Shown in pieces: positions 997 to 43,673 of a DNA stretch of 64,000 nt. The DNA comes from Gordonibacter sp. An230 (GTDB lineage: Bacteria; Actinomycetota; Coriobacteriia; Coriobacteriales; Eggerthellaceae), in the NCBI RefSeq assembly GCF_002159915.1, contig NZ_NFJP01000003.1, positions 124,001 to 188,000 of the forward strand, in the 5' to 3' direction. Position 1 is the first letter of the stretch. Every line of letters starts with the position of its first letter. The notes beneath the pieces were generated by a model, which saw nothing but the letters and a program-made list of their open reading frames with translations, was not told where the DNA came from and searched no databases. Made by a program: the position numbers and the translations under genes.

Positions 997-2877
997 ATTT
1001 TCGTCCCCTCTCGGGGTTTGGGGTTATCTGCCTGACGTTTCCGACGCGATGGGCGTGACCGTCACGACGTTTTCGTCCCCTCTCGGGGTTTGGGGTTATC
1101 TGCCAGAAGCTACCCTCTACCGCCACGACGACGGCGAGTTAGTTTTCGTCCCCTCTCGGGGTTTGGGGTTATCTGCCGCCCCGGCCTCTGAGAAGGGAGA
1201 TCACATGATAACCAACAGTTTTCGTCCCCTCTCGGGGTTTGGGGTTATCTGCCTTTACGTTGCGTATCCGCAGTACGTGAGCGACGTGATCGTTTTCGTC
1301 CCCTCTCGGGGTTTGGGGTTATCTGCCGCCACAGACGGAGAGCCGCTTTTCACCCATGAGAACGGGTGGTGTTTTCGTCCCCTCTCGGGGTTTGGGGTTA
1401 TCTGCCTGTTATTGGATGTACAGCAAATGCGTTCTCATGTGTTTGTTTTCGTCCCCTCTCGGGGTTTGGGGTTATCTGCCCAGATTAGCAATGTCACTGT
1501 TGAAATCCTTGATAGTGGGTTTTCGTCCCCTCTCGGGGTTTGGGGTTATCTGCCTCCCTCGACCGACACCGAATGGTGGCAGTACCAATACGTTTTCGTC
1601 CCCTCTCGGGGTTTGGGGTTATCTGCCTGTTATATCTAAGAAGACCGCTGAGTTCTCATCTTTTAGTTTTCGTCCCCTCTCGGGGTTTGGGGTTATCTGC
1701 CGAAGCTGAGGAATATATCAACATGATGCATCAGAGTTTTCGTCCCCTCTCGGGGTTTGGGGTTATCTGCCGTGATCAGGCTTGCAATCGTAATAGCGAT
1801 GCCCGTTCGTTTTCGTCCCCTCTCGGGGTTTGGGGTTATCTGCCTTCTTGATAGTGGTATGTTGAGTGTGGAGAGTCTCCAGTTTTCGTCCCCTCTCGGG
1901 GTTTGGGGTTATCTGCCTCTACGGCGAGCGCAACAACGTCGCCGAGTTCGTGATGGTTTTCGTCCCCTCTCGGGGTTTGGGGTTATCTGCCTCGAAGATG
2001 CCCGGCTCGCATCCGCGCCGCAAGTACGTGATCGTTTTCGTCCCCTCTCGGGGTTTGGGGTTATCTGCCGGCTGGGGGGCATGCCCTCCCCGGGTCGCCG
2101 ACCGACGTTTTCGTCCCCTCTCGGGGTTTGGGGTTATCTGCCCGGAACCATGGCAATGATGTATCCGATGTTAAAGGTTTTCGTCCCCTCTCGGGGTTTG
2201 GGGTTATCTGCCAGGGAGAGGAGAATGGACGGATGCCTCAAGTTCCTAGCGATCGTTTTCGTCCCCTCTCGGGGTTTGGGGTTATCTGCCGCGTGGAAAG
2301 GAGGAAGACATGCGATTGATGGGCGAGTTTTCGTCCCCTCTCGGGGTTTGGGGTTATCTGCCTGTACAACACCGTCAAGTGCGTTGTCTCAAAGGTAGAC
2401 GTTTTCGTCCCCTCTCGGGGTTTGGGGTTATCTGCCAAGGAGGACACAGTGACAACGCTAGCACGAACCAATCAGGTTTTCGTCCCCTCTCGGGGTTTGG
2501 GGTTATCTGCCCTATGAAGCTGCTCGCTTAGCTAAGAATCTGAATGTATTGGTTTTCGTCCCCTCTCGGGGTTTGGGGTTATCTGCCTCACTGATGGCGG
2601 AGATGCTCAAGAAGGTGCTGTACGTGTTTTCGTCCCCTCTCGGGGTTTGGGGTTATCTGCCGTACGCGTCGGTGTCCGAGGCCGCACGCAGACTGGGTTT
2701 TCGTCCCCTCTCGGGGTTTGGGGTTATCTGCCTTCGTGGAAGATGAACGGCAAGGCGGAATTCAAGCAGTCGTTTTCGTCCCCTCTCGGGGTTTGGGGTT
2801 ATCTGCCCGATGACCCTCGACGCCAGGTCCTGCATCGGCAAGTTTTCGTCCCCTCTCGGGGTTTGGGGTTATCTGCC
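997..2877 (-). CRISPR. CRISPR array, 26 repeats and 25 spacers, type III-A
   Basis: The 36-bp repeats begin on the + strand with GTTTTCGTCCCCTCTCGGGG and end in GGTTATCTGCC. Spacers are 34-43 nt and all differ. On the minus strand the repeat ends in ACGAAAAC, an 8-nt 3' end typical of the crRNA handle of type III systems, so transcription is read leftwards from the cas2 side. Only the repeat at 997-1032, the leader-distal one, deviates (first base A for G), as expected at an old array end. Spacers at 1481-1518 and 1845-1881 share CTTGATAGTGG. Confidence 0.97.
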
Positions 2878-2966: not shown

Positions 2967-3320
2967 TCAAACAAACACATCGTTTTCAGGAGCGTGATCG
3001 ACGCATTTCCCGAGAACCGTCAACTCGCAATTACTCGCTATGCGGTAAATTCTTACCTTGTCATCAGGATCGTAAAACCTCTTACTCGCCATAACGCTCG
3101 TCAACTTGGCTGTCAACTCCCTGATCTGAGCGCTTTTTACATATGCTTCGAAAACAGAATACTGTATCCTATGGCCATAGCCTTTCAAAATCCTAATAAC
3201 TCTTCTGTATTTTTTCGCATCGGAAATATCAAACAAAACCATGACGTAAAACCGATCCTCGGACGGCGAGGCTCCTTTGATTTTTCCTATCCGAGGATTG
3301 CGAACCTCTAACCGAGTCAT
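2967..3320 (-). CDS. cas2: CRISPR-associated endoribonuclease/integration factor Cas2
   Basis: The 117-residue protein dimerises and bridges two Cas1 dimers during spacer acquisition. The Cas2 fold is visible from about residue 24: the beta strand and metal-site Asp in FYVMVLFDISDAKKYRR, then the RIQYSVFEAYV strand. The first 23 residues (MTRLEVRNPRIG...) are an extension that typical Cas2 proteins of 85-100 residues lack. The start is kept because GAGG lies 9 nt upstream and the ATG sits 4 nt after the cas1 stop. It is the last gene of the cas operon, just before the leader. Confidence 0.92.
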   Translation of the reverse strand: MTRLEVRNPRIGKIKGASPSEDRFYVMVLFDISDAKKYRRVIRILKGYGHRIQYSVFEAYVKSAQIRELTAKLTSVMASKRFYDPDDKVRIYRIASNCELTVLGKCVDHAPENDVFV

Positions 3321-3324
3321 AATA

Positions 3325-4347
3325 TCAATCCTCTTCCTTCAACCATAGAAAAGGCTGATAATAAATAGGGTTTCTTTTCTCGATCGCCTCCACCAGCATA
3401 AGAGCCTTGCGATGGAGCGCAGCTTGGAATCCGTACCTTCTCCTACCTCCCCCTTCCATGAAATATACCTCGCTTCGCACCATGGCGTCCCCCAGGCGGT
3501 GAGTCAGCAACCTCATCGTCTCCTTTTTCATATAGATGGCCCCCGCCTCGTTTTTATAAAAGTCGGAGGGTAGAACTTCCCCGTCGTTCACCAAGGCGAT
3601 AATCGTGCGATCGACGATCCACGCCCGCCACTCCTCAACAAGATCGGAAGCAAGGGCGGCATGTCCCTGCTTCACCGCATGCAGAAAACCAAAATAGGGG
3701 TGCAACCCCACAGCGTTGATCGCCCCGAGGACGTTGCGGAACAATATACTGTAGCCGAAGCTCAGCATCGAATTGATAGGATCCCTCGGCGGGCGGGCGC
3801 TCCTGCCGCGAAAGTCGAAGTCATGGTCGGCAAGCAGCTTCGGCAGACAATTAAAATACGCTTTTGCCCCATTTCCCTCAAAGCCCATAACCTGGGAAAC
3901 GTCGCAAGCGCCGTCGAGATATTCAAGGGAATGCGTCAGGCCCCGCACCTCCTCGGCATCGAACGAGTAGATGCCCGGATATGATCGAAGCAAGCTGAGG
4001 CTGTTCCAGAGCTTCGCCCTCACGATAAGCTTCGACCATTCAAGGCAGAAACGCGGGTCATCGCTCAGATACATCTGCATTTTCTGTCGGAACGGATCGA
4101 CTTGCTCAAAAGATGAAAGATGTCCGAAGTAGTGTCCATCTTCGGAATAAAACAATACAGGCATGTTCTGCCGTATGCATTCGCACAAAAGGTGGGTCGA
4201 GATCTGCGGCTTGCCGAACACCGATATCCCCTCGACATCGTCAAAGGGGAAATCGCGCATAAGCGACCCGTCGTCGGCCTTCTTGATTGTAAGCCTTCGC
4301 TCGGACAGGCCAACCTTCACCGCGCTCTCAGTGAGATACAGATGCAC
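3325..4347 (-). CDS. cas1: CRISPR-associated integrase Cas1
   Basis: Cas1 inserts new spacers at the leader end together with Cas2. At 340 residues it has the usual two-part architecture: an N-terminal beta domain (residues 1-80), then the helical catalytic domain with Glu157 in GFEGNGAKAYF, His223 in FGFLHAVKQGH and the acidic SDLVEEWR segment, which should supply the metal ligands. There is no fused reverse transcriptase or Cas4. The start overlaps the csm6 end by 20 nt, so the two are translationally linked. Confidence 0.96.
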   Translation of the reverse strand: MHLYLTESAVKVGLSERRLTIKKADDGSLMRDFPFDDVEGISVFGKPQISTHLLCECIRQNMPVLFYSEDGHYFGHLSSFEQVDPFRQKMQMYLSDDPRFCLEWSKLIVRAKLWNSLSLLRSYPGIYSFDAEEVRGLTHSLEYLDGACDVSQVMGFEGNGAKAYFNCLPKLLADHDFDFRGRSARPPRDPINSMLSFGYSILFRNVLGAINAVGLHPYFGFLHAVKQGHAALASDLVEEWRAWIVDRTIIALVNDGEVLPSDFYKNEAGAIYMKKETMRLLTHRLGDAMVRSEVYFMEGGGRRRYGFQAALHRKALMLVEAIEKRNPIYYQPFLWLKEED

Positions 4348-5632
4348 GGGGCACCTCGCACTGCAAGAGTTGGATCACCTCGCCGTTGATTCGGCGATAG
4401 AGCCCCCGCCCCTGCTTCGATCCATCAAGCTTGAACATGATGTCCAAGGATTCCTCCAGCGAGATTCCTCCCGCTTTTTCTATACTCGCCTTGTCAACTT
4501 TTCCCACCTCGTGCGCAAGGCGATGCCGCGCCTTCTTTTCCAATGTCCGCAGTTTTTTATACGGTTCGTATTCCAAAGAATTCGCAAAGTACTCGATGAG
4601 CTTTGCAAGATGACCGTTCGTCACATAAGGGTTCTCGCCTTTGGGTTTCAAAACTCGTCTAAGGTCGTCATTCCGGTCGACTTTGCCGGAATCGATGCGC
4701 CTCGTGATTTTACCAGAGCGCTCCAGCAACCACTCTCTATCGGGTATAGAGACGCGCACGCGCTTGAGCATCAGCTCCGTCAACGCAGGCGTCATCGCCC
4801 GTAGATAGTCGGCCCACTGTTCGCGCTGAAGATAGACTTCCAACACAGACAGGTATTCGAACAAAGCTCCCGTCGTCTCGGGAGAATCGCAAGGGAACGC
4901 CGTTCCCTTGAAGCAGGGAATCGCCCGCTGGCGATCGAGGCGCGAGCGGTAAACGCACCCTTCGATCAATGTCGTCGCCCGGAATGAAATCGACCGGCAT
5001 TGCTTAGCAAGCCTCAAGGCGGCAACGTAATCGTACCCTTCGACGAACGCCCGAATGTTATCGCGGAGAACGAGATCGGAGAAGTTCGCCGACTCCACTT
5101 CGCGGCATCGATTCTGCGCATCCCCTTCCCTGTCGGGATTCATTTCCCAAAGCGTGTCGAAATCGTAGTCGTCGGCCTTCTCGCGGTCCCCGGGCTCGTT
5201 GATGCCCTTCCTCGGTGTTTCCACCTGGACCGCCCGCAGGCGCCGATGCCCGAACGCATCGATGGCGACGAGCGCCTGCTGCATGGCAGGAGTCCCCGAT
5301 GTCACATTGAGCAGTATCTCCGCATCGGGGTCTTCCTCTTCCAGCTGTGCAAGCAATTCATCAAATTCCTTGATGAAAAGATCGTACCTATGCACTTCGG
5401 TCGAAGCCGATTCGATGCAGCCCACCTCCGGCCCGTACTCCCCTATTTCGGCAGCCAAGAGCCGTATCGCACGCGTGTAGCGTTCGTCCCGGCTTTCATA
5501 AGCCGCCATGGCGGGCGAAAGGAACAGAATGATCTTTTCGGGCCGATACCGCCTCACGATGTGGAGCATCGGCCCATCGCCGAGTGTGGAGAGGGGGTCC
5601 GCCGTGCCGACGGGGGAGAAGAGGATTCTCAT
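4328..5632 (-). CDS. csm6: Csm6, CARF-HEPN ribonuclease activated by cyclic oligoadenylate
   Basis: Csm6 degrades RNA nonspecifically when Cas10 makes cyclic oligoadenylate. The 434-residue protein starts with a Rossmann-like CARF domain (MRILFSPVGTADP, and the ligand-loop strand LLNVTSGTPAMQQAL at about 107-121). It ends in a HEPN domain with the R-x4-H motif ARHRLAHE (Arg369, His374). The chosen ATG overlaps the csm5 stop (TGATG); a longer frame exists upstream but would lie inside csm5. Both functional motifs are intact, so the effector should work. Confidence 0.94.
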   Translation of the reverse strand: MRILFSPVGTADPLSTLGDGPMLHIVRRYRPEKIILFLSPAMAAYESRDERYTRAIRLLAAEIGEYGPEVGCIESASTEVHRYDLFIKEFDELLAQLEEEDPDAEILLNVTSGTPAMQQALVAIDAFGHRRLRAVQVETPRKGINEPGDREKADDYDFDTLWEMNPDREGDAQNRCREVESANFSDLVLRDNIRAFVEGYDYVAALRLAKQCRSISFRATTLIEGCVYRSRLDRQRAIPCFKGTAFPCDSPETTGALFEYLSVLEVYLQREQWADYLRAMTPALTELMLKRVRVSIPDREWLLERSGKITRRIDSGKVDRNDDLRRVLKPKGENPYVTNGHLAKLIEYFANSLEYEPYKKLRTLEKKARHRLAHEVGKVDKASIEKAGGISLEESLDIMFKLDGSKQGRGLYRRINGEVIQLLQCEVPRASVSH

Positions 5633-7083
5633 CACATCGCCCCCTTCGCATGCGAACGATCCGGCGTATTTTCGATCTTCACGGTGCATCGGCCCATCGG
5701 AAGCAATGCGCCATCCACCTTCCCCAGCTTCAAGGTATGCGGCGACACCCCGAGGTCCTGATCCATCCAGTGGCGATGGTCGTCTTTGGCTTTTTGCAAA
5801 CGCCCTCGCCCCTTGAAGAGAGCCTTCATTGGCTGAGGGCCAAACCCCTCCGCCTCGACCCTTCCCCATAAAGCCCGATGTCGCCCACTGGCAAAATCCC
5901 GGTCGATCCTAGTCGGGAATTGCTTGTAGAGGACATGGGATATCTCATGCAGCCGCTCGCCTTCATCGCGGTAGAGCGCATTGAGCACGGTCTTGCTGTC
6001 GAAATCCACTCCGCCGCCCAGATAGCAGATGGCTTCCACCCCTGTAGACCGGGGCGCTTCATCCTTATGCACGTTGCAGTAACCGCTTTCGGCCACTGCG
6101 CCATTGCGACATCGTAAACCGTTCGACGCAACATAACGGCATCGACCGTCCGATACCAGCCCGCGAGAATCTCCTTCGCCGCCCATCTCGTAATCGAAAT
6201 GATCTGCGAAGCAGGCCCGGTAGCGCTCTTCGAATCGCTTGAAAACATCCCCTACATGCTCGGCATCAAGGGAAAACGGAAGGTACTCGTCGATGCGCTC
6301 ATCAACATCCAGACGTAACGAGACAACCGTACCCGGCTTCAAGCACTCCCGGTAGATGTTCAGCTCGTTTCCGTCGGTTATATCGCCTATGGATTGGTTT
6401 CCCATGCGGCGCTTATGCTCCGCGCGATCCCCCTTCGAGAACCTGTCGTACTTCTTCACGAATGCCAGATCGCTCACGCTCAGCGGATCGGAATCTGAAA
6501 CCGACACATAGCGCATGATGTCGCAGGCAAATCCCGCATCGCTTTCATCCGGCCGCTCGACCCACAGCGCTTTCTTATTGAGGGAAGCATCCGCGTTCGC
6601 ACTTCTTCGCCAATCGCGACCTCGCCAGCCATCCTTCATCGCCCGGACGAATGTTTCGGGATCCCTTCCGATAACAGCCGCCAGCAACGCTGTCCGCAGC
6701 ATGCCCTTAAAGCTCGAACCGGGCACGTAAGGGCAGCCGTAGGAATCCTTGACGAATTCGGCCGCTTCAAGATACTGCAACTTCCCCTGCCTGGTTTTAG
6801 AAAGCCCTGTATCTAACTGGTAGGCGCAAGCGTCCTGCGCCGCTTTTCGCAATTCGCCATGCCGAGATAGAAAATCTTCAAGACCGCTCCGCGAATCGCC
6901 TTCGAGAAACGCGCAGTACTCGCCCACCTGCTGCGGGGAAAGGCGCTCGACGAACCGAGCCGCATCCAAAACGCAGATCTTCCCCTTCTGCAGGAAATAA
7001 TCCTTCTTCCCGATCGTACGCCCCGTGCCGATATGCACGGGTCCGATCACCGTCAAAGCAACTTGGTACCGCCTTATGGCCAC
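5632..7083 (-). CDS. csm5: Csm5, RAMP subunit, with a zinc-finger-like insertion
   Basis: Csm5 caps the crRNA 3' end of the Csm complex. RAMP features are the N-terminal strand with GPVHIGTG and the glycine-rich VPGSSFKGMLRTAL (about 120-133). At 483 residues it is longer than the usual 350-400. The extra length includes a cysteine cluster with Cys315, Cys325, Cys336 and His339 (GRCRYVASNGLRC then GYCNVHK), spaced C-x9-C-x10-C-x2-H, which would suit a small zinc site. The gene starts 3 nt after the csm4 stop. Confidence 0.92.
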   Translation of the reverse strand: MAIRRYQVALTVIGPVHIGTGRTIGKKDYFLQKGKICVLDAARFVERLSPQQVGEYCAFLEGDSRSGLEDFLSRHGELRKAAQDACAYQLDTGLSKTRQGKLQYLEAAEFVKDSYGCPYVPGSSFKGMLRTALLAAVIGRDPETFVRAMKDGWRGRDWRRSANADASLNKKALWVERPDESDAGFACDIMRYVSVSDSDPLSVSDLAFVKKYDRFSKGDRAEHKRRMGNQSIGDITDGNELNIYRECLKPGTVVSLRLDVDERIDEYLPFSLDAEHVGDVFKRFEERYRACFADHFDYEMGGEGDSRGLVSDGRCRYVASNGLRCRNGAVAESGYCNVHKDEAPRSTGVEAICYLGGGVDFDSKTVLNALYRDEGERLHEISHVLYKQFPTRIDRDFASGRHRALWGRVEAEGFGPQPMKALFKGRGRLQKAKDDHRHWMDQDLGVSPHTLKLGKVDGALLPMGRCTVKIENTPDRSHAKGAM

Positions 7084-7086
7084 GCG

Positions 7087-8010
7087 CTATCCCTCCATCC
7101 ACATCGCCTTGGCGTAGCGCCAAACCGGATGGGCGCCGCCGACGGAAACGTCGAACACATCCCCGGAAAACGCCATTTCGAACGTCGATCCAGCATCGAA
7201 GACGAAGAAGTCGCGCTTCTTCAACGGCATTGGCGCGTAATTTTGCGACTGGACGAATCCGGACCGCTTCACCAGCGAACACGACGCGCCCCGCAAGAGT
7301 TCGTCGGACAGCTCATCCGCAGTAGGCGCAGCCGAGGACAGCAAAACGCGCATTCCTGTCGGAATGCCTTCGCACGATATGAAGCCGTCACAATCCCGCA
7401 CTTCGTATTCGAAGCGTCCATAACCCGACGAGCGCTTGCCGCCAAGGCCGCTGCAGCTCAGCGTTTCAAGAAGCGGCTCGAACCCGTAATCCCCTTGCGC
7501 GAGAAAATAAAGCCCCGCATCCTCGCCGAAGCGGAACCCGCCGACATGATACGGTTCCGCCTCATCGCGATCTTCCCGTTGCAGGTTGACCTTGCTGACG
7601 ACCCCTCCCGCGCCAAGCCCCTCTCGCAATGCCCGCAATGCCTCGACGGCATCCAAAGAACCGTCGAAGTAAGAGCCGTACGAATCCCAAGGCACATAGC
7701 GAAGCTTCTTGAACGCCTTCTTCGCCGCAGAATCGACCCCTTCGACACGCTCTCCGCCCATCGAAGCAGGAGCCGCGAAGGGCTTGGGAAGGTAGTGCGT
7801 ATCGCCGATCCAAGGAAACGCATCGCTGATCAAAAAGCCGCCGGAACGAACCGCCCGCAGCAGATCCTCCGACGCGTCCTGCCCTAGCGCCTCGATGAAC
7901 AAGGCGCTGAACAGCGTATCGGCCGAACACGCGCATTCCCCATCCGAAAGACGCCCAGCACCGAAATGGACAGGAGCAGCGAAGCTCAGTTTAACCAGCC
8001 GGGTCCTCAT
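7087..8010 (-). CDS. csm4: Csm4, RAMP subunit binding the crRNA 5' handle
   Basis: The 307-residue protein should cap the 5' end of the complex and contact Cas10. The N-terminal strand with HFGAG and the helix SADTLFSALFIEAL are typical of Csm4. The glycine-rich loop GLGGKRSSGYGRFEYEV lies near residue 200. The start overlaps the csm3 stop by 4 nt, in keeping with the tight operon. Confidence 0.93.
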   Translation of the reverse strand: MRTRLVKLSFAAPVHFGAGRLSDGECACSADTLFSALFIEALGQDASEDLLRAVRSGGFLISDAFPWIGDTHYLPKPFAAPASMGGERVEGVDSAAKKAFKKLRYVPWDSYGSYFDGSLDAVEALRALREGLGAGGVVSKVNLQREDRDEAEPYHVGGFRFGEDAGLYFLAQGDYGFEPLLETLSCSGLGGKRSSGYGRFEYEVRDCDGFISCEGIPTGMRVLLSSAAPTADELSDELLRGASCSLVKRSGFVQSQNYAPMPLKKRDFFVFDAGSTFEMAFSGDVFDVSVGGAHPVWRYAKAMWMEG

Positions 8011-8666
8011 CGCAGCTCCGGTATCGCCGTCGCGAGATCCCCCGTTGCAACCTGCGCTTCGATATCCGTCAGATCAACCCGCCCGTTGCCGCGGGTTCCC
8101 CCGCCGCCCAAATAATCGTTGCGCAGCAAGTCGAACGCAAGCTGAATATTTTCGAAATCCTTCTCTATCTGGTCAGCATTCTCGACGTTGTAGACGATCT
8201 CCAAATCGAATTTGGCACCGCGGACAACCCGCTCGATTTGACGGGGGTTGGCCACCGCCGTCAAACGGTCGATGGTGTTTTCGAACTTGGTTTCGAATGT
8301 CTGGGGCAACGCATCCTTATTGACGAGGAAAGCGTCTTTGAACATCAATCGGCTTTGTTGGATGCCCGTCCCCGCAGCATCCGATCCCTTTTTGCTCGAC
8401 CCGAACAAGCGCAGTACCTCAACCGCATCGCTTTCGAAACCCGCAACCCCCTTCGCGGGAAGGGAGCCGAACTGGCGGGCGAGCAGGGTGCGCAGCTTGC
8501 CTTTGAGCGTGCTGCCCGGAATGACGGGGCCGCGTGTCAGCGGATCGCGCACCACGGGAAGGTCGATCGCCCCAATGGCGGAAAACGACGCGTCCCCGCC
8601 GATATGCAACCCGGTCTTCACTTCGATTATCCCCGTTATCTTTATCTTGGTTGCGGTGAAAGCCAT
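8007..8666 (-). CDS. csm3: Csm3, backbone RAMP and target-RNA nuclease
   Basis: Csm3 forms the helical backbone along the crRNA and cuts bound target RNA at 6-nt intervals. The 219-residue protein has TGLHIGGD, the loop SAIGAIDLPVVRDPLTRGPV that carries the catalytic-type Asp, and IPGSTLKGKLRTLLA. The C-terminal glycine loop is GGGGTRGNGRVDL. Length and motifs are standard. It lies 3 nt downstream of csm2. Confidence 0.96.
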   Translation of the reverse strand: MAFTATKIKITGIIEVKTGLHIGGDASFSAIGAIDLPVVRDPLTRGPVIPGSTLKGKLRTLLARQFGSLPAKGVAGFESDAVEVLRLFGSSKKGSDAAGTGIQQSRLMFKDAFLVNKDALPQTFETKFENTIDRLTAVANPRQIERVVRGAKFDLEIVYNVENADQIEKDFENIQLAFDLLRNDYLGGGGTRGNGRVDLTDIEAQVATGDLATAIPELR

Positions 8667-8669
8667 CGC

Positions 8670-9095
8670 TTACTCCTTTCCGCCGTAGAACTTGAAGAAC
8701 GCCACAAGGCTTTCGGCATAGCGGCAATACAGAAGGTACTCGTCGTACGCATTCACCCGATCCAGCATGTCCATGAGATGCGTTTTGTCGAGGAAATCTT
8801 TGACCTCCCTCATCCTGCCGGCCTCATATGCGAGTTTGACTTTGAGGTATTGGATATCGCCCTTCGATTTCGCGAAAGCTTCCTGATCGTCTATTTTCGT
8901 ATACAGGTTTACGATATGGGCATATATCCCACGAAGCTTCGTCGTGGTAAGACCGCCGAACAACCCTTTCCTGTCATTCCTTCCCGCTTCTGCTTCCATC
9001 AGCTTCTTCGCGTAATCGGCATAGGCGCCCTCCGCAAGCGAATAAAGCTTCCCACCGTTGTTGAAAAGCAACGTGGGTTGTTCCCGTTCGGCCAT
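8670..9095 (-). CDS. csm2: Csm2, small subunit of the Csm complex
   Basis: The 141-residue, largely helical protein should line the target-RNA channel. The segment TTTKLRGIYAHIVNLYTK, and a C-terminal helix ending FFKFYGGKE, match the pattern of Csm2 proteins. The assignment is reinforced by its position between cas10 and csm3. The ATG is 3 nt after the cas10 stop. Confidence 0.88.
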   Translation of the reverse strand: MAEREQPTLLFNNGGKLYSLAEGAYADYAKKLMEAEAGRNDRKGLFGGLTTTKLRGIYAHIVNLYTKIDDQEAFAKSKGDIQYLKVKLAYEAGRMREVKDFLDKTHLMDMLDRVNAYDEYLLYCRYAESLVAFFKFYGGKE

Positions 9096-9098
9096 GTC

Positions 9099-11327
9099 CT
9101 AGCCCCTTTCCCGGATGCTGTACACATACCATTCGAGCGCGGTCACCAGGCACCTGCGCTCGCCCTCGTCAAGCGCCCACTCGAAGAACCGCTTGCTGAT
9201 TTCCGCCCCGCGCTCCTTATCGTCCTCGAAGCTCCGCGCCAACAGGTAAGCCAACCTCGGAACGGAAATGGGGTTGTCCAAATCCCGCAGCAAATCAAGC
9301 AGTCGGTAGATAAAGGATTTCCCCTTGTCGTTGCACTCGAACGCGCTCTTGATCTCGCCCAGTTTCCCGCATACGCCGCCTTCGAACTCATCCCAGCTGA
9401 AGACGTTTCCCTTATCCCAGATAGCTAGGGCGTTTTTGCCATCATGGCCCTTGGCGGCATCCTCCAGCTCCCCCACCTCGGATGCCATGCGCGCAAGGGG
9501 GTATCGAGGATCGTACATCCCCAAACCCGCGCTTATGGTCAAAACCCCGTTGCCCGTGAAATCATCGAGGGCCTTGCGGATATCCAACGCCGCATAGATG
9601 ACATCGCTCCAATTGCCGATCAGGAACAGGTCGTCACCACCCGAATAGATGATCTGCGCCCGGTAGCCGCCCTCGTCCAAGATGCCGTTTATCCTCTGCT
9701 TGAAGAAGTAGCTGAGCGACCGGCTCAACGCCGTGGTGCGGCTGATGGATATCTTGTCGTCCGGCAACCCGCTCGAGAAGATCATGCCGAGGTTGTCCAC
9801 GTCGGCCCTCAGCACGCCAAGGCGCTCTATCCCCTTGCCCTCTTCGAGGCTGATTCCGCTTTCCGCGTAGTCGCCGATCCCCCTGCCATGCTGATCGGCC
9901 GTGTAATCCCCCATCCATATATGGGTCGCCAAGGCATCGCCGGTATCCCACTCCTTGGTGTAGATGCGAATCGCATCGGGCCTTTCCGCGCGATACTCAT
10001 CACGGCTAAACACGCTCAACCAGCAACCGAAGGGCAATTCAAGCTCGCCTTCGGAGGAGACGACGAAGACGCTCTTTCTCACCAGCTTCGGCGAGATGGT
10101 TCCAAGAGCCCCGCAAAGCGGGCACAGCCCATCGCCCTCGCGTATCTCGGCGTCGCTGCGATGGCACTCCTTGCACTCGCGCGTATGGTCCCACTCGCGA
10201 CGGCTTGCGAAATTGAGTTTCGCAATCTCCTCTGCCGTATAGCGACTCCTCTTTATCGCGGAGAGTTTGTCACCCAAGTCCTTGTACAGCAAGCGATAGC
10301 GCTTCGATCCCCTGCTCGTTCCCTCTTTGTTCATCAGATCGTTCGCCGAACAGGGAACAAACGCGCACGCGCAGAACAAATCCGTTCTGAAGCGCTCCAT
10401 AAGCCATGCCCCGAGTTCGGAGGAGAACGCCTCGATCTGGCTTTTCGCCTTTTCGGTGTTCGGAAAGAGGGCATATGCGTGGCCTCCTCCCGTGTACAGC
10501 AAATTGCATCGGGTCAGATCGAGGCGAGCCAGCAGTTCATCCATGCAGTGTTCGAGGAGGATTTCCAAATAGAAGGATCGCGCTCGCAATTGCTTCAGCG
10601 CACCCGATCCGCTTATTTGGTAGATGAAGCTTTGGATGCCGCTCAAATCGCAGGACCAGAGAAGGAACATCTGCTTATCGTAATAAGCAGATGCCTTTTC
10701 CCCATTGAACAGGATAGAGCGGTAATCCTCAACGCCAACAGCCGACAAATAGTCGTACAGGCATGCGGCAAGAGCCGCGGTAGTCTTCGCATGATCGAAC
10801 AGAGAGACATCTACGAGCTCGGCTTTGTTGGTCGAAGAGGGCACACGGTCGCACGTCGCCTCAAAAAGGTTGATCAGCGACCCTATGCGGCCTTCCTCAA
10901 GAGCGAAGCCAGCGAACTCCCTCTTGATCCTCTCGCGAATGGCATTGTAATCCTCGTGTTCTACAACGCTATCGTCATGATGCCCTGCGACGATATTGAA
11001 AACCCGACGAAGCTTGGCCTCCCTATCGAACCCGGAGTCCCCTCCCTCCTCCTTGCGATCTATTCCAGCACTTATGTTGTCGGCAAAGTACGTGAGGTAG
11101 GCCAAGGAATCCGACGTGAGCGGCGCCCCTTTCAGTTCGCGAGCATGATGGTATCTGATTTGATCCACCACCTCATTCCGCAGGGGATCCCCTTCGGGAA
11201 CGATCCCCGCGATGAAATCGGCACCGAGTTTCGAATGAGTCCCTTGAGCCGAGGAGCCTCGATAAACAATTTTGCCGACATCGTGCAGCAATGCACCGTA
11301 AATTAATTTGAGCTTCTCCTCATTCAC
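9099..11327 (-). CDS. cas10: Cas10/Csm1, HD nuclease and cyclic-oligoadenylate synthase
   Basis: Cas10 is the large subunit: its HD domain cuts DNA and its Palm domain makes cyclic oligoadenylate on target recognition. The 742-residue protein has the HD pair His15-Asp16 (LLHDVGK), a zinc site with Cys385, 388, 402 and 405 (CKECHRS and LCPLCG), and the catalytic GGDD at 563-566 (IIYSGGDDLFL). All are intact. Translation begins at a GTG overlapping the cas6 stop (GTGA). Confidence 0.97.
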   Translation of the reverse strand: MNEEKLKLIYGALLHDVGKIVYRGSSAQGTHSKLGADFIAGIVPEGDPLRNEVVDQIRYHHARELKGAPLTSDSLAYLTYFADNISAGIDRKEEGGDSGFDREAKLRRVFNIVAGHHDDSVVEHEDYNAIRERIKREFAGFALEEGRIGSLINLFEATCDRVPSSTNKAELVDVSLFDHAKTTAALAACLYDYLSAVGVEDYRSILFNGEKASAYYDKQMFLLWSCDLSGIQSFIYQISGSGALKQLRARSFYLEILLEHCMDELLARLDLTRCNLLYTGGGHAYALFPNTEKAKSQIEAFSSELGAWLMERFRTDLFCACAFVPCSANDLMNKEGTSRGSKRYRLLYKDLGDKLSAIKRSRYTAEEIAKLNFASRREWDHTRECKECHRSDAEIREGDGLCPLCGALGTISPKLVRKSVFVVSSEGELELPFGCWLSVFSRDEYRAERPDAIRIYTKEWDTGDALATHIWMGDYTADQHGRGIGDYAESGISLEEGKGIERLGVLRADVDNLGMIFSSGLPDDKISISRTTALSRSLSYFFKQRINGILDEGGYRAQIIYSGGDDLFLIGNWSDVIYAALDIRKALDDFTGNGVLTISAGLGMYDPRYPLARMASEVGELEDAAKGHDGKNALAIWDKGNVFSWDEFEGGVCGKLGEIKSAFECNDKGKSFIYRLLDLLRDLDNPISVPRLAYLLARSFEDDKERGAEISKRFFEWALDEGERRCLVTALEWYVYSIRERG

Positions 11328-12072
11328 TCTACAAGCAAACCTCCCATCCCCATCGAAGTTTTGATCCCTATTCCGGCGAAACGCCCGAAGTGGAAAAGCA
11401 TGCCTGCCAGTCCCTTCAAAGGCTGAGGGCCCTCGACCTTGACCGTCATCGTCCCCATGAACGCCGGGATATTTTTGCCGGACAGAGCAAATCCTTGGGA
11501 GCGTAGACTGTATCTCACTATGCGCGTGCGAGAAACAAGATAGTCGACCGTTCCGGCATCCGCTTCATGGTCGGCATCGAACACCTGGCCGTAATGCATG
11601 AGGAGGTTTTGGTAGACGAGACGCATATTCGGAATGTTTTGATAGGCCCCGCCGCTTTTGAATGCGGCAGGGGAGACAAACCTCAGGGTGAATCGCTGCG
11701 CGTCGCCGGTATAAACCATGTCAACAAGATCACGGCGAGATAGCTCATCTCGACAAGGAGCTCCAAATGCCAAGGGAAGATCGAGCTTCTTTATCCGCAA
11801 ATCCGCAGCATTCAGAAGGCGTTCGACGATTGCCTCGTGCGCTTCACCTGTAAGCGCATTCACGACCCAGACGAGCGAAGAACCCTCAACTACGCAGTAT
11901 TGGCTATAGGAATTGAAAGGGGCACCGTGCAGTCGTTCGGCCCATTGGGGCTCGACGCACTCCATGAGAACGCCTTGGAGAAGGGGACCCAAATCCCATG
12001 GGCGTATTTTAGATTTTTGCTCAAGAGCGCGAGGGGGGGGGGCAGCTCAATACCGAGAGGGATTCTCGTCAT
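11324..12072 (-). pseudogene. cas6: Cas6 crRNA endoribonuclease, out of frame at a C10 tract
   Basis: Cas6 cleaves the CRISPR transcript within each repeat. The C-terminal frame carries QWAERLHGAPFNSYSQY and the final glycine-rich loop GIGIKTSMGMGGLL. The N-terminal strand MTRIPLGIELPP is in another frame starting with ATG at 12072. The two are separated by a run of ten G on the + strand (12033-12042). One more base would restore MTRIPLGIELPP-PRALEQKSKIRPWDLG and a 249-residue protein. As it stands, only a TTG at 11992 gives a 222-residue product lacking the first strand. A TAGAAT at 12163-12168 (reverse complement) is a possible -10; I see no good -35. Confidence 0.85.
12033..12042. repeat. 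G10/C10 homopolymer in cas6
   Basis: Ten consecutive G on the + strand lie about 30 nt after the cas6 start codon and exactly where the reading frame breaks. Tracts of this length slip easily in replication and are also prone to sequencing miscounts. Confidence 0.95.
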
Positions 12073-43663: not shown

Positions 43664-43673
43664 CCCCCCCCCC
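43664..43673. repeat. C10 homopolymer between converging genes
   Basis: Ten C lie in the 16-bp gap between the EFR1 stop and the PIN stop. It is outside coding sequence but would change the stop-proximal spacing only. Confidence 0.95.

Follow-up and report, generated by a model that had tools for sequence, protein, structure and literature searches.

A ten-cytosine tract splits cas6 in a type III-A CRISPR-Cas operon of Gordonibacter: a candidate slippage switch

Introduction

Can a CRISPR-Cas system be turned off and on again by the gain or loss of a single base? The question is raised by a type III-A locus in a 64,000-nt stretch (hereafter the window) from the gut-type actinobacterium Gordonibacter sp. 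An230. In this locus cas6, the first gene of the operon, is divided between two reading frames at a run of ten C. G/C runs are a classic means of phase variation, and restriction-modification and Pgl/BREX systems are known examples of phase-variable phage defence, whereas a search of open-access literature gave no phase-variable CRISPR system or cas gene. We consider that the tract probably represents an ON/OFF switch operated by slippage in cas6, acting probably on the whole operon and captured in the OFF state, and we assign this reading a probability of about 0.58.

A type III-A locus with a split cas6 gene

The locus consists of the following features.

12033..12042, minus strand: C10 homopolymer, the proposed slippage switch, in cas6 codons 11-14
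11890..12072, minus strand: cas6 as read at C10, with ATG, beta-1 strand MTRIPLGIELPP and a 60-codon peptide ending at TAG 11892-11890
11324..12046, minus strand: cas6 body frame of about 240 codons, open between TGA 12049-12047 and TGA 11326-11324
9099..11327, minus strand: csm1/cas10, with HD (LLHDVGK) and GGDD motifs; GTG start, 4-nt overlap with the cas6 stop
8670..9095, minus strand: csm2, family match
8007..8666, minus strand: csm3, family match
7087..8010, minus strand: csm4, family match
5632..7083, minus strand: csm5, family match, with a Cys-rich insertion common to relatives
4328..5689, minus strand: csm6 (CARF-HEPN); the open reading frame is listed from 5869 and matches the family only from residue 81
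3325..4347, minus strand: cas1, family match
2967..3320, minus strand: cas2, family match
997..2877, minus strand: CRISPR array of 26 repeats (25 identical, the distal one with one change) and 25 spacers

With cas10/csm1 carrying GGDD, csm2 to csm5, csm6, cas1, cas2 and an array, the locus belongs to type III-A. The 24 spacers that separate identical repeats are all distinct. On the minus strand, the repeat (GGCAGATAACCCCAAACCCCGAGAGGGGACGAAAAC) forms a hairpin (CCCC-GAGA-GGGG) with exactly 8 nt, ACGAAAAC, after it; enzymes of the Cas6 family cut at the foot of such a hairpin and leave an 8-nt tag. The original prediction held that the other type III-A genes are intact, and csm1 to csm5, csm6, cas1 and cas2 are indeed full-length family matches or nearly so. 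Judged by its sequence, the locus apart from cas6 looks intact and recently maintained. The insertion in Csm5 (C-x-YV...C...YC-x2-H), which lies outside the usual Csm5 match, resembles a small zinc site and recurs in Coriobacteriia (window 5632-7083, L065:2971-4467, and L066:11538-12950).

The tract had been placed at 12033-12042 of the minus strand as exactly ten C, and both its coordinates and its sequence proved correct. The cas6 ATG lies at 12072-12070 and the tract, at 12042-12033, begins 30 nt downstream of it. From this ATG, translation at C10 gives MTRIPLGIELPPPLALLSK... (in a longer reading MTRIPLGIELPPPLALLSKNLKYAHG...) and stops after 60 codons at the TAG, while the frame that encodes the body of Cas6 has its TGA immediately 5' of the tract and TTG 11992 as its first start codon. 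Thus the N-terminal strand and the remainder of the protein lie in different frames and the break falls exactly at the tract, as was originally proposed. The further claim that one added base restores a 249-residue Cas6 also holds: with one more C the protein is continuous over 249 amino acids, and its residues 10-249 match a single open frame in the genome (E 7e-163). As in phase-variable genes, a long simple repeat is present within cas6 and a change of one unit joins or splits the frame. The C10 state therefore does not encode a full-length Cas6 with its N-terminal strand in one frame, and the protein from TTG 11992 scores 43.4 bits with TIGR01877 against a cut-off of 58.65. The C-terminal RAMP domain with its Gly-rich loop (GIGIKTSMGMGG) is present, with 51.6 bits for PF10040 against a cut-off of 25. 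A genome-wide search detected no second Cas6 able to act in trans, and neither a sigma-70 promoter nor a terminator was found at the head of cas6. C10 runs occur three times in the window, compared with 0.43 expected, and this number was reached in 2 of 100 shuffles. One of the others (43664-43673) lies inside a 16-nt gap that separates the stop codons of two convergent open reading frames.

Cas6 in related loci

Since a search of genome contigs with the Cas6 sequence as query gave no matches, relatives were collected by a Cas10 profile, which yielded 78 loci; together with earlier loci, Cas6 could be recognised in 69 records. Of the 63 distinct Cas6 genes judged, that of the window is the sole one without an in-frame start 8 or more codons upstream of the common domain; all 62 assessable relatives encode the N-terminal strand in a single frame. 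This excludes a conserved Cas6 start at 11992, which the original prediction had named as a possible objection. In none of the relatives compared does cas6 contain a C/G run as long as 7, so that a tract conserved in orthologues was found for another gene of this genome (see below) and not for cas6; such conservation would support phase variation but is not required for it. On these comparisons, the cas6 tract is private to the lineage of the window and hence no conserved switch. In addition, 58 exact 15-mer matches to the site were found in viral contigs, none of them with cas6 and with a longest C run of 5. The cas6 gene of another Coriobacteriia III-A locus (L003 / L066 / L231; G014:C101) contains an in-frame TAG, a possible further case of Cas6 loss or mis-assembly.

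The nearest relative is an uncultured Gordonibacter-labelled MAG whose Cas6 is 59% identical. Its region equivalent to the tract reads ...STRIVLPLSRDDLLSKHGLRHWDLGPLLQG in a single frame and without a C run, and both halves of the window's gene match it, with TRI 5' of the tract and PWDLGPLLQG 3' of it, in two frames. In an AlphaFold model of this relative's Cas6 (mean pLDDT 94.9, pTM 0.92), residues 6-15 form beta-1 and residues 29-54 the first long helix. The best solved match of the model is Streptococcus thermophilus Cas6 (6fjw; TM 0.87/0.92, sequence E 6e-74), which includes the same N-terminus. Comparison of the two cas6 genes gave a dN of 0.29 and a dS of 1.98, the latter near saturation, and a dN/dS of about 0.15, from which cas6 is under purifying selection relative to its nearest relative.

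The proposed switch and its probable effect on the operon

In the mechanism that we propose, a hypermutable C tract sits directly after the beta-1 codons of cas6, and replication slippage would add or remove single Cs in a genome where MutS, which serves loop repair, was not found. With C11 (or C8 or C14), the full 249-residue Cas6 would be made and ribosomes would arrive at the overlapping csm1 start; pre-crRNA would then be cleaved 8 nt ahead of each spacer and the Csm complex loaded. With C10, as assembled, or C9, the early stop would leave the cell without Cas6 and without mature crRNA, and probably with less Csm1 and downstream proteins. Type III-A immunity would be lost in this OFF state, whereas an intact type I-C system would stay active. 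Our view of switching in living cells and of its rate, of the resulting immunity phenotype, of polarity within the operon and of a possible selective advantage is inferred from the DNA.

The OFF phenotype is plausible because Cas6 is essential to III-A immunity in Staphylococcus aureus (PMC5687920). A bypass of the loss may exist by analogy and is conceivable because III-B variants without Cas6 can employ RNase E (PMC9762709).

It had also been suggested that the crRNA-processing step alone could be toggled, which is unlikely, since cas6 leads the operon and its early stop probably reduces csm1 and the rest of the operon as well. The cas6 stop and the csm1 GTG share four bases (GTGA), and short overlaps of this kind are common in relatives (-4 in 11 loci). 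In the C10 state, translation ends 563 nt upstream of the csm1 start, and through lost coupling and possible polarity the operon as a whole, Csm1 and downstream proteins included, is probably expressed less.

A slippage-prone genome, or an error of tract length?

The most serious rival holds that the length of the tract is an assembly or sequencing error, such that essentially all cells carry C11, cas6 is intact and no consequential OFF state exists. The assembly is a draft of 73 contigs, with one genome per species, and breaks frequently at poly-C: poly-C lies at or close to the ends of contigs C18, C21, C26, C30, C35, C40 and C44, and contig C4 ends (118631 to 118703) in about 70 C, an artefact that marks failure of the assembler.

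Several properties of the genome nevertheless favour a real hypermutable tract. A search for mutS1 (TIGR01070) gave no match in this genome, whose completeness is 96.7%, but was positive in 11 of 14 control genomes. Actinobacteria mostly rely on a non-canonical pathway with NucS, which cannot correct indels (PMC8228993). Genome-wide there are 49 C/G runs of exactly 7, 22 of 8, 60 of 9 and 93 of 10 or more, the last number including some contig-end artefacts. The spectrum is bimodal with a second mode at 9-11, and the rise after length 8 is not expected by chance, since a chance spectrum would keep declining. Runs of 9-11 are likewise in excess in genomes of the same genus and across the family; long C/G runs were detected in 110 of 138 Eggerthellaceae genomes, and the genome of the window has the most among those listed. 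The absence of a detectable MutS and the surplus of long runs thus place the cas6 tract, indirectly, in the class of hypermutable tracts. This surplus argues against a mere length error, as does the consideration that a true C11 without MutS should still slip often, in the manner of the G8 tract of pglX in Streptomyces coelicolor, which switches at 1e-2 to 1e-4 (PMC4365076).

Most long runs are intergenic, and they look like products of neutral growth purged from genes by selection, because they strongly avoid coding sequence (18 of 119 runs, against 70% of positions) and, with proper gene calls, are not concentrated at gene starts. An apparent 5'-side excess of tracts (36 vs 9) was an artefact of the method: a scan that enters a gene from the 3' side invariably runs into its stop codon. 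Intergenic C10-C11 runs directly followed, on the C strand, by 8-10 T were seen seemingly too often (L071, L083, L084, L088:4313, L096:1501, L102, L104).

Within genes, the frame across each run was assessed by codon scores trained on the genome of the window; cas6 was left out, its upstream part being too short to score. Coding runs of at least 9 were shifted in 10 cases and in frame in 5, compared with 19 shifted and 228 in frame for runs of 5-6 (Fisher P 1e-7). Free slippage would put two thirds of the runs out of frame, and random errors of assembly length would do the same. Slippage is preferred because of a conserved site, the classes of the genes concerned and the missing MutS. Among the shifted genes, three encode membrane proteins with a C-terminal LuxR domain, the run lying in the membrane portion or the linker; others encode a PucR regulator, a large protein of surface type and a group-1 glycosyltransferase. 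In frame are, among others, a LicD-family gene, a teichoic-acid-type gene and the genes for a Crp-like regulator and one more LuxR-type membrane protein. These are typical contingency classes. The conserved site belongs to surface-type orthologues from two genomes of the genus (L152:1502, L198:1501), which carry G9 at the same codon although their flanks have diverged; the gene is in frame (ON) in the same-genus genome and shifted (OFF) in the genome of the window. Such conservation of an orthologous tract in two assemblies is not expected from length errors. We thus regard a length error in cas6 as unlikely, albeit deserving of real weight, and it would cast doubt on the OFF state seen here rather more than on the switch itself.

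Multi-pass LuxR-type membrane proteins with G/C runs of 9-11 are off at L055:1502, L058:1502 and L109:1501 and in frame at L101:1501 and L153:1502, and in the genome G088 one is off (L193:1501) and one in frame (L181:1501). It is possible from their sequences that these run-bearing proteins, mostly out of frame, are phase-variable regulators in the genus. A mid-gene G/C run also shifts the frame of PucR-type regulators in both the window's genome and G088 (L076:2403; L166:1501).

Neutral decay and other explanations

The genome also encodes a complete type I-C system on contig C2 (cas3-cas5-cas8c-cas7-cas4-cas1, with a 46-copy array and its own repeat; L282:9201-19962). Known Cas5c enzymes, which do the processing in type I-C, are specific to the repeats of their own system, and we therefore do not expect this one to replace Cas6. 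Beside this intact system the III-A locus might be superfluous, and cas6 might have been lost by ordinary tract expansion, reversible but without a role. A few kb from the I-C genes, a decayed cas1 end is fused to a cas2-like start and carries its own C10 (L282:6511-7026; C10 at 6790-6799), which fits such neutral decay, as do the mainly intergenic, neutral-looking distribution of long tracts and the stop inside cas6 of a Coriobacteriia relative. However, the roughly 240 cas6 codons and all other genes of the locus are otherwise undamaged, dN/dS is about 0.15 and the array is nearly perfect, so that the loss, if any, must be very recent. Neutral decay appears improbable to us.

It has to be considered as well that C10 is retained and that transcriptional slippage or a -1 ribosomal shift yields some Cas6 in every cell. 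The body frame is indeed -1 relative to the start frame and slipping by -1 on C-CCC-CCC would recover it, but a conserved slippery site is absent from all relatives and similar tracts occupy all frames and unrelated genes in the genome, which makes recoding very improbable.

Least credible of all is that the true Cas6 (222 aa) starts at TTG 11992, with the upstream frame irrelevant: an open frame does exist from there, but the 62 assessable relatives all begin upstream, and the product is unlikely to work because, on the model of the nearest relative, it would lack beta-1 and begin inside the helix of residues 29-54.

We therefore return to a slippage switch in cas6. A wider reading, that CRISPR-Cas is phase-variable by design, with the cas6 poly-C switching the III-A operon as part of a set of G/C contingency genes (membrane LuxR, PucR, surface and glycan genes) in MutS-less Eggerthellaceae, is tentative and on the whole doubtful. 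Slippage may have been selected for or may just be tolerated where MutS is missing.

Significance and comparison with known systems

If cas6 switches, a fraction of the population would lose and regain adaptive immunity while its spacers are retained, which would bear on the tolerance of self-targeting, useful plasmids and prophages, and also on why cas genes often appear broken in draft genomes. The missing MutS and the statistics of the tracts also suggest a wider, undescribed set of slippage-prone genes in Eggerthellaceae.

By its gene set, the HD and GGDD motifs of Cas10, the hairpin repeat with an 8-nt tag and a Cas6 of the 6fjw fold, the locus resembles the type III-A (Csm) systems of Staphylococcus and S. 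thermophilus, but differs from them in that cas6 comes first in the operon and is split by poly-C, a tract absent from all relatives compared. The many G/C runs of the genome, intergenic as well as intragenic and with surface and regulatory hosts, recall the contingency loci of Campylobacter (PMC8355987); those loci rest on strain and colony data, whereas here there is one assembly per species and the tracts are mostly intergenic and without a sign of selection. The nearest working parallel for phage defence in an actinobacterium is Pgl of S. coelicolor (PMC4365076), in which single-base slippage at a G/C homopolymer in one gene of the operon likewise switches the defence. The present locus is not a member of Pgl/BREX, since its genes are those of CRISPR-Cas and not the pglX methyltransferase and pglZ, and only its switching would be Pgl-like. 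Pgl switches through the G8 tract of pglX, the methyltransferase of a BREX-like system, at a measured rate, whereas here the gene is cas6, the tract is C10 and the switching is inferred.
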